From Balneolaceae bacterium (GTDB lineage Bacteria; Bacteroidota; Rhodothermia; Balneolales; Balneolaceae): a stretch of 38,144 nt of DNA. Both the position numbers and the translations under genes were made by a program. Location of the stretch: assembly GCA_020832225.1 (NCBI GenBank), contig JAFIFA010000021.1, positions 1-38,144 of the forward strand. Reading direction: 5' to 3'. Below, piece by piece: positions 35,572-38,144 of the stretch (within the stretch, counting starts at the first letter, position 1; the number at the start of each line of letters is the position of its first letter). Below the pieces are notes generated by a model. That model was given only the letters and a program-made list of their open reading frames with translations. It made no database searches and was not told where the DNA came from.

Positions 35572-36000
35572 TTACTTCACTTTAATCTGCTTCTTCATTT
35601 TTTGTTCGCTCTTGTTAATAGTAACGTTCAAAATTCCATCTTTGTATGTGGCGGACACACTATCTTCGTCAGCGCTGTCCGGCAGATGGAATGAACGTGA
35701 AAATGAGCCGTAGAAAGTCTCTACTCGATGGAACTTGGTTCCGTTATCTTCATTCTCCATTCTTCGCTCACCGCTGATGGTGAGTCTGCCGTTCTCCATG
35801 TGGATGTCGATATCTTTCTTATCCATTCCGGGAAGTTCAACATCGATCACAAACTGCTTCTCTGTTTCTGAGATGTTGATTCTCGGTGAGAATTCTGCAT
35901 TTCGATTTACAACTGCATCATTGAAAAATTCATCAATAATGTCTGAAAATCTCTTTCCGAACAGATCGGTGTTTGGTTGAGAATATTTGATGAGTGCCAT
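35572..36000 (-). CDS. Hsp20/alpha-crystallin family small heat shock protein; start refined from 36033
   Basis: MALIKYSQPNTDLFGKRFSDIIDEFFND...INISETEKQFVIDVELPGMDKKDIDIHMENGRLTISGER...FSRSFHLPDSADEDSVSATYKDGILNVTINK; SD GGAGG upstream. Confidence 0.95.
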   Translation of the reverse strand: MALIKYSQPNTDLFGKRFSDIIDEFFNDAVVNRNAEFSPRINISETEKQFVIDVELPGMDKKDIDIHMENGRLTISGERRMENEDNGTKFHRVETFYGSFSRSFHLPDSADEDSVSATYKDGILNVTINKSEQKMKKQIKVK

Positions 36001-36194: not shown

Positions 36195-36757
36195 GGGTTT
36201 GGGAGGGGGTGAGAGGGAGAGTGGGGGAGTGGAGGTGAGGGGGGAATTATTGGTCAAATGGGTAATTATTCTGCTTTGAGTATAGTCAGGAAAAAATTAC
36301 AATTAATCTATGCCAAGAGTTAAATCATATCGAAGTCTACGTGTATATCGGTTATCCTTTGATCTGGCTATGGAAATATTTCATAAAACCAAATCCTATC
36401 CATCAGAAGAGTTGTACTCGCTCACAATTCAGATTAGAAAATCCTCCAGATCCGTGTCTGCGAACATATCAGAAGCATTTCACAGCAGAAGGTATCCCAA
36501 TCTGTTTGTCCATAAACTAAATATCTCGGAACGAGAAGCTTGTGAAACACAAAACTGGCTGGATTTTTCAGTGGAGTGCGGGTACCTAAACAAAGCCGAT
36601 TATGATCATCTGACTCAGAGATACGACAAAGTTATTGGAATGCTGATATCAATGATGAATAAGCCCAGGCAGTGGAAGATTTAACAGGAATTGGAGAGAC
36701 AGCATCTTCACCCACTCTCCCACTCAACCACTCACCCTCTCTCCTCCTCCTAAACCC
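36195..36757. repeat. Cassette bounded by 38-bp imperfect inverted repeats enclosing the four-helix-bundle gene
   Basis: Left arm 36195-36232 GGGTTTGGGAGGGGGTGAGAGGGAGAGTGGGGGAGTGG vs reverse complement of right arm 36720-36757 GGGTTTAGGAGGAGGAGAGAGGGTGAGTGGTTGAGTGG: 32/38 ungapped matches by eye. Confidence 0.6.
36310..36684 (+). CDS. Four helix bundle protein (23S rRNA-intervening-sequence-protein / S23-like)
   Basis: YRSLRVYRLSFDLAMEIFHKTKSYPSEELYSLTIQIRKSSRSVSANISEAFHSRR...ISEREACETQNWLDFSVECGYL; hallmark QIRKSSxSVxANIxEG/A-like segment. Confidence 0.92.
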   Translation: MPRVKSYRSLRVYRLSFDLAMEIFHKTKSYPSEELYSLTIQIRKSSRSVSANISEAFHSRRYPNLFVHKLNISEREACETQNWLDFSVECGYLNKADYDHLTQRYDKVIGMLISMMNKPRQWKI

Positions 36758-37855
36758 CTACTCTTCAAACTCATAAAAACCGATTGTGTATTCCATTACG
36801 TCATCGTTTTCCTGTATCAGCATGCGGTTTTTCCAGGTTCCGAGAAGCTTTCCTGGAAGGGTAAATTCACGCGGGTTGGTTAAATCCGGCAGATCGTATA
36901 CTACACCGAAGTAATCAAAGTTTTCAGCTTCGTAAAACGGGTTCTCATAAAAGTTCTGATTGGCGTTATACCAAACCACAACTAATTGATTATCGAGCAT
37001 TCCAATCCCGCTCACATTGGTTAAGTCCATATTGAACTCGCGGGAAAAATTCGCCGTAAAATGATAATTGTTCGTGTGATCAAACTCTATGCTTCGCTCT
37101 CTATGATTTTCAGGCCTGAATCTGGAAGTTGCTTCAATTTCACCACTTTTTAGATTTAGCCTGAATACAGAGTAATCAGTGTTGAAGATGTAATAAAGAT
37201 AATCTCCACTATCATCAGCGGCTATAAAGGGATACTTTTTATGCGAATCCAGTTCGTCAAGTGTCGTTGAAAACTTGCCCAACATCTCTCCAGTTTTAGA
37301 TTCTAAGTCCAGAACAAATATAGCGTTGGCGTCCTTAAAGTTTAATTCATTTACGTGCTGATGATCTTTCACTGCTGAAATAAGCTTCCCATTTGAGTAG
37401 ATACCATAAGTGTTCCGGATCCATATATCTTGAGCAAGGAAACCTTCTTTTTTCCTCGACACATCACCCTCATAAATTTCCGTAATCATATCCAGTGCCT
37501 GATCATTTATATATTGCCGCTCTTCACTGACCAGATAAACCTGGTTAGGCTGTGTCAGTTCTTCCGGTCCTCTGCCACTCTCTCCCAGATGCTTAAAGCT
37601 TCCGTCAACCAATGAAAGTCTGAAAGGAAGTCCCCTTCTGAAATCAATGCCGTATGCTATACCTGAATCTGTTACCTGAAGCCCTTCCATTATGACTTCA
37701 GGCTGGTCAGGTTCATTTTGGACGATTACTTCGTCCACTTTGACTGGCAAGACACTTCCACCACCTAAATCCGAAGCTTCATTGCATCCCAGTTGCGTAA
37801 TTAAAAAAAGGGCCACCATAAATGGCAACCCATTACTTTTTATTAATTTACTCAT
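36758..37855 (-). CDS. 6-bladed beta-propeller lipoprotein; start refined from 37942
   Basis: Lipobox FLITQLGCNEAS; repeated strands GLPFRLSLVDGSFKHLGESGRGPEELTQPNQVYL, DLESKTGEMLGKFSTTL, YSVFRLNLKSGEIEATSRF, GKLLGTWKNRMLIQENDD. Confidence 0.85.
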   Translation of the reverse strand: MSKLIKSNGLPFMVALFLITQLGCNEASDLGGGSVLPVKVDEVIVQNEPDQPEVIMEGLQVTDSGIAYGIDFRRGLPFRLSLVDGSFKHLGESGRGPEELTQPNQVYLVSEERQYINDQALDMITEIYEGDVSRKKEGFLAQDIWIRNTYGIYSNGKLISAVKDHQHVNELNFKDANAIFVLDLESKTGEMLGKFSTTLDELDSHKKYPFIAADDSGDYLYYIFNTDYSVFRLNLKSGEIEATSRFRPENHRERSIEFDHTNNYHFTANFSREFNMDLTNVSGIGMLDNQLVVVWYNANQNFYENPFYEAENFDYFGVVYDLPDLTNPREFTLPGKLLGTWKNRMLIQENDDVMEYTIGFYEFEE

Positions 37856-37874
37856 TTCAAATATCGAGTTACAT

Positions 37875-38144
37875 TTATTCTGGTATGGGTGTACTCGTAC
37901 AGGGAATACATCCATTTCCAGAAAATGAACAGTTAAGTTCATGACCCGGTATATCAGTATAGTTCAGCTGCCGAGGACCCTGATAATCCGGGTCTGATTC
38001 TTCACACTCACCATCATTTGCCAAAACCGTTTCCCCGCACAAAGAGAAATCAAACCCATCTTCGCTCGTGGTTACCGTGAACATCATCAGCATTGCAAAT
38101 GCCCCAACTGTGAAGATTGAGAGAAGGTATGTTTTTAATCGTTT
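37875..38144 (-). CDS. Small exported Cys-rich peptide, 5'-truncated by window edge
   Basis: Frame open to the edge: KRLKTYLLSIFTVGAFAMLMMFTVTTSEDGFDFSLCGETVLANDGECEESDPDYQGPRQLNYTDIPGHELNCSFSGNGCIPCTSTPIPE*; signal-like N-terminus, 5 Cys; 19 nt before the beta-propeller gene. Confidence 0.7.
   Translation of the reverse strand, partial: KRLKTYLLSIFTVGAFAMLMMFTVTTSEDGFDFSLCGETVLANDGECEESDPDYQGPRQLNYTDIPGHELNCSFSGNGCIPCTSTPIPE

Follow-up and report, generated by a model that had tools for sequence, protein, structure and literature searches.

Proteins of the S23 family (PF05635/TIGR02436) are common and their structures have been solved, without a function having been assigned to them. Avd, an accessory protein of diversity-generating retroelements that has a related fold, works with a reverse transcriptase. 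In the 23S rRNA intervening sequence (IVS) of Coxiella burnetii, an S23 open reading frame is carried on 428 nt together with a 28-bp inverted-repeat stem (PMC4990558). Tandem heptads (GACAGAT), the number of which varies between strains, lie just before this reading frame, and RNase III cuts at the first of them; what 23S rRNA intervening sequences do and how they arose is still described as unclear (PMC4990558). Repeats of 7 nt also occur in the P6b stem of the Nostoc tRNA-Leu intron, in which the repeat type (NNTGAGT in Class II, or TDNGATT) has switched repeatedly and the origin of the heptad stem is stated as unknown (PMC4476775).

We examined a related arrangement in a 38,144-nt stretch of a Balneolaceae genome (contig JAFIFA010000021.1; hereafter, the window). 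A sequence-only reading of the segment at 36195–36757 had proposed an undescribed cassette in which an S23/IVP-like four-helix-bundle gene is packaged between inverted GA/CT-rich arms. The gene (36310–36684, plus strand, 124 amino acids) scores well above the cut-offs of both family profiles (PF05635, 100.6 bits against 33.8; TIGR02436, 96.7 bits against 24), and its AlphaFold model and the solved structures 2gsc and 2rld place it in the same family. It is, as had been claimed, the only complete gene in the segment, and the cassette contains no transposase gene. The inverted match of 32 out of 38 ungapped positions was recovered where it had been placed and extends to 37 out of 47 (left arm, 36195–36241, plus strand; right arm, 36711–36757, read on the minus strand). 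The right arm runs up to 36757 and abuts the stop codon (36758–36760) of a convergent gene outside the cassette (36758–37942, minus strand), which had been read as a beta-propeller and has no Pfam match. An HSP20 gene (35572–36000, minus strand; PF00011, 91.4 bits) lies outside the cassette on the other side.

The arms are more than GA-rich sequence. Their alignment score of 27 exceeds the best score (24) among 5,000 mononucleotide and 5,000 dinucleotide shuffles, which keep the GA-rich composition of the arms themselves, and none of 100 shuffles of the 350-nt flanks reached it. Both arms are tandem arrays of about five octads each, with the repeat GAGTGGNN: the identity at lag 8 is 0.67, compared with 0.46 after shuffling (none of 2,000 shuffles was as high), with no enrichment at lag 7. 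Reading inward, the left arm opens with GGGTTTGG and continues through five GAG-type octads (GAGGGGGT GAGAGGGA GAGTGGGG GAGTGGAG GTGAGGG); the right arm, reading inward on the minus strand, opens with GGGTTTAG and likewise continues through five (GAGGAGGA GAGAGGGT GAGTGGTT GAGTGGGA GAGTGGG). The GA/CT-rich description is correct as to composition but does not suffice; the arms beat composition-matched shuffles. The feature that it missed is that the arms are tandem repeats of 7 or 8 nt that are private to each locus. The predicted RNA fold of the window cassette pairs both arms (z = −4.5).

The layout resembles that of the 23S IVS: one S23-family reading frame on approximately 430–560 nt, inverted terminal arms of approximately 28–47 bp and tandem repeats in the arms, the Coxiella heptads lying in the 5′ arm. 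It differs in its period of 8 and in its position between protein genes (the HSP20 gene and the convergent gene) rather than within a 23S rRNA gene. Because an IVS is defined by its location in rRNA, we do not class the window cassette as one, although it is built like one.

Six strong S23 genes are present in the genome that contains the window (3.37 Mb, 231 contigs). All six are armed, and each arm pair scores beyond all 100 of its shuffles. The six copies have six different repeats (AGTCNTG, GTGAGAC, AACCTTN, AGTTGAC, GAGTGGNN in the window and one of approximately GGACAGAAGACC), with no arm sequence common to them; the left-arm region of the window has no other match in the remainder of the genome. 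S23 genes were found in 77 out of 92 genomes of the same family, with up to 16 copies per genome. Among 14 HSP20 loci, a single one (L066, from the relative G048) also has an S23 cassette, which shares the GAG octads of the window and has a different right neighbour. In that locus (L066:1017–1230), the left arm runs on inward as a long array of GCGGGTGA octads, which points to recent slippage. No empty orthologous site for the window cassette was found, as synteny around it is too poor.

In a wider survey, 102 S23 loci of named genomes and of viral contigs could be tested; the genomes are mostly of Bacteroidota but also of Ignavibacteria, Chloroflexota, Pseudomonadota, Nitrospirota, Poribacteria, Paceibacterota, Bacillota and others. 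Inverted arms with a score of at least 16 are present at 72 of these loci, and 77 beat all 60 of their shuffles. Arms also flank nine out of ten plasmid S23 genes (cyanobacterial and Riemerella) and, among S23 genes additionally sampled from other families, about 7 out of the 12 that are intact, one of them marginally. Far from being consistently absent from related S23 genes, arms are therefore usually present. About 30% of the sampled S23 genes lack clear arms, in a sample that leans to canonical S23 proteins because the loci were picked by profile score or tblastn. Of the additional genes from other families, eight have internal stops, and most of these are still armed, so the arms can outlive the gene. 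We found no S23 match in phage records. In one case, the arms of a locus (L038) are identical to those of a Fodinibius halophilus locus (L091), which suggests that the family of the 92 genomes is probably Balneolaceae.

None of 317 ordinary control genes (438 kb) scored 18 or more, and three scored 16. An unbiased scan of the same 438 kb placed the strong periodic inverted pairs either around S23 genes or in two hairpins without a gene, with a few weak pairs close to the threshold elsewhere. The two gene-less hairpins (L048:1122–1188 and L055:14570–14632) have heptad arms and loops of 16–28 nt.

The period is 7 in 83 and 8 in 18 of 104 arm pairs, and mean identity at lag 7 is 0.61, compared with about 0.25–0.30 at other lags below 14. 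Arms usually contain four or five units, in a broad spread of four to six without a sharp preference for five. The inward-reading strand is G-rich and C-poor in 89 out of 96 cases. Heptads mostly follow the skeleton AGnnnTn, the AG anchor of which is inflated because it was picked by maximum, and position 5 is the freest (least conserved in 28 out of 66). Arm repeats differ between loci yet match from left to right within a locus. This agreement is 0.83 in register and 0.69 one unit off, and 0.81 compared with 0.71 when the order of units is shuffled; the in-register value is favoured by the way in which the alignment was chosen. The two arms consequently seem to be inverted copies that have since diverged, and not separately formed arrays of one repeat. 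Cassettes have a median length of 476 bp from end to end. At 63% of loci, no more than 12 nt separate the outer end of the left arm from the stop codon of an upstream frame in the same direction; this is true of 2.5% of random positions. Most cassettes are therefore probably co-transcribed.

The arm repeat follows the lineage of the protein. Periods 7 and 8 cluster on the S23 protein tree (8 changes, compared with 15.9 after shuffling; 0 of 500 shuffles), and one mostly period-8 clade unites Balneolaceae, Flavobacterium and a Nitrospirota genome. The more alike two S23 proteins are, the more alike are their arms (Mantel r = 0.41); this also holds between collections (0.30) and below 60% identity (0.26), and in each of the three tests none of 1,000 permutations was as high. 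Arms and gene thus form one evolving unit. Such co-variation is joint inheritance of the two and needs no binding; a natural reading of these sequence comparisons would be that the S23 protein recognizes the arm repeat, and the self-recognising module put forward in the sequence-only reading is to that extent a good conjecture.

A single orthologous site documents the presence and absence of the cassette. Between two genes that we take, from their translated sequences, to be fadB-like and fadA-like (L203–L232), S23 cassettes recur across several genera. The junction is filled in G003, G007 and several other genomes; it holds a truncated cassette with both arms kept in L220 and L222, only short AT-rich repeats or hairpins of approximately 30–68 nt in L211–L215, L217, L218, L224 and L227, and almost nothing (2–14 nt) in L216, L221, L225, L226, L229 and L232. 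This series of filled, truncated, gene-less and empty states, together with the recurrence of armed genes across phyla and an arm repeat that follows protein lineage, gives good support to the proposal of a packaged cassette. In the 15 junction cassettes, the match between left and right arms within a locus beats the left–left plus right–right matches between loci in 98 out of 105 comparisons, and on the tree their S23 proteins cluster into a small number of groups (4 label changes, compared with 13.7 after shuffling). Protein lineages at this site thus largely stayed in place while both arms were renewed together; alternatively, the junction may have undergone repeated replacement by related cassettes. 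Between close pairs, 0 to about 5 of 20–31 arm positions change while dS is 0.2–2. A fadB-like end also precedes cassettes at several named Bacteroidota loci.

The suggestion that the cassette is mobile is supported in part. Presence and absence at one site and occurrence on plasmids and viral contigs speak for it. Against it, there is no target-site duplication signal in 79 loci (mean 2.89 nt, compared with 2.78 nt in swapped flanks), there is no mobility enzyme, no fresh insertion turned up among the loci compared, and the best-studied site mostly shows persisting S23 lineages. In lacking a transposase, a target-site duplication and terminal repeats common to copies, the S23 cassette differs from insertion sequences and MITEs.

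Pairs of S23 genes have dN/dS values of 0.02–0.11, and this purifying selection indicates that the protein is kept for a function. The AlphaFold model of the window S23 protein, predicted as a monomer, has four helices and a pLDDT of 95.9. Its best PDB matches are 2gsc and 2rld, each of which contains five chains, and by analogy with these two solved relatives the window protein is probably a pentamer. The next match is Avd (4dwl), with which the protein shares the four-helix fold (TM 0.78/0.90, E = 0.05) but only 12% identity. In contrast to the setting of Avd, this genome has no reverse transcriptase gene (no RVT_1 match), and the number of S23 genes does not correlate with that of RVT_1 genes after correction for genome size (−0.05).

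We consider it probable that the segment at 36195–36757 is an S23 cassette, that is, a repeat-armed, IVS-like element between protein genes, the protein of which reads its own arm repeats. An S23 pentamer would bind the tandem repeats of its own arms, which have four or five units each, perhaps with one unit per subunit. Binding could take place in the transcript or in single-stranded DNA, in either of which the arms can pair as a hairpin. The cassette would be a selfish or self-regulating element whose presence is tolerated in the gap after a stop codon and before the next gene. Slippage, and copying from one arm to the other, would renew its repeats, and an enzyme supplied in trans would be needed to move it. 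For the more specific idea that a pentamer binds about five units per arm, to which the number of units, the linkage of period to protein and the five-chain crystals point, we would put the chances at slightly below even.

The arms might instead act as RNA alone, pairing in the transcript to form a stem that RNase III cleaves, so that the S23 message is cut out or shielded. The host operon could then tolerate it, and protein binding would be unnecessary. The predicted pairing of the window arms, the cleavage of the Coxiella IVS at its first heptad (PMC4990558) and the probable co-transcription of most cassettes all agree with such a process. However, mismatches between left and right arms show no G:U bias (121 compared with 130), a promoter-like motif separates the left arm from the start codon at 9 out of 139 loci, where the message may thus not include that arm, and pairing gives no account of why repeat and period follow the protein; we regard this explanation as unlikely. 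Neutral simple-sequence repeats that lie beside S23 genes by chance would also vary in sequence and copy number and could expand by slippage, as in the long octad run of L066. That the left and right arms share a locus-specific repeat in register, that the inward strand is so consistently G-rich, that no control gene reaches a score of 18 and that repeat and period follow the protein across phyla is hard to reconcile with chance, and the control genes and the co-variation between phyla in particular largely refute this possibility, to which we give almost no weight.

A further alternative is that a Y1 (HUH) transposase, acting in trans on single-stranded DNA hairpins as has been proposed for REP elements, moves the cassette as a non-autonomous element, with S23 as cargo or as an end-binding protein. 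S23 cassettes resemble RAYT/REP systems in having a single gene between inverted repeats and gene-less hairpin relatives. Moreover, S23 and Y1_Tnp copy numbers correlate over 89 genomes (0.78; 0.66 after correction for genome size, in statistics that ignore phylogeny), more strongly than S23 does with phage integrase (0.26) or DDE_Tnp_1 (−0.24). Yet S23 is not a Y1_Tnp transposase, and five genomes with at least three S23 genes have no Y1_Tnp gene. The inverted, REP-like flanks found at 19 out of 19 Y1_Tnp genes tested in relatives (L265–L284) are of another, non-periodic kind, whereas S23 arms are tandem arrays; nor is S23 arm sequence common to copies. We therefore judge transposition in trans by a Y1 enzyme to be improbable, and the preferred explanation remains that of a cassette whose protein reads its arm repeats.

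Repeat-armed S23 elements, usually with 7-nt and sometimes with 8-nt units, make up a widespread and apparently undescribed class; in the open-licence literature text that we searched, repeat arms are nowhere described for free-standing S23 genes. Taken together, the armed cassettes, the arm repeat that follows the protein and the heptads of the Coxiella IVS merge the questions of S23 and IVS function into one of binding. Tentatively, and with a probability that we put below even, S23 proteins may be repeat-reading pentamer rings (about five 7- or 8-nt units per arm, with private repeats) that define a cross-phylum class of elements, including free-standing cassettes, 23S rRNA intervening sequences and gene-less heptad hairpins such as the trnL P6b stem. 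The Class II repeat of that stem, NNTGAGT, becomes AGTNNTG on rotation, which is common in S23 arms, and the stem resembles gene-less arms. It has no S23 gene, and the link is one of resemblance in repeat type only. Such elements are a possible source of the heptanucleotide stems, so far unexplained, in cyanobacterial introns.

Some individual loci have further features. The promoter-like motif (TGTAAGG...TTCATACA) is not general, being confined to L001, L019, L021, L029–L032, L037 and L094, and a TGTAAGG-like element is dispersed in relatives (query 1179–1216). In L001, a thiolase-like frame 3′ of the S23 gene can begin within the right arm (ATGACTCAAGACTCAAG...), so that arm repeats may encode its first residues. 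On cyanobacterial plasmids of Pseudanabaena and Anabaena (L234 and L239), an S23 cassette lies between cas6 and cas4 of a CRISPR operon.
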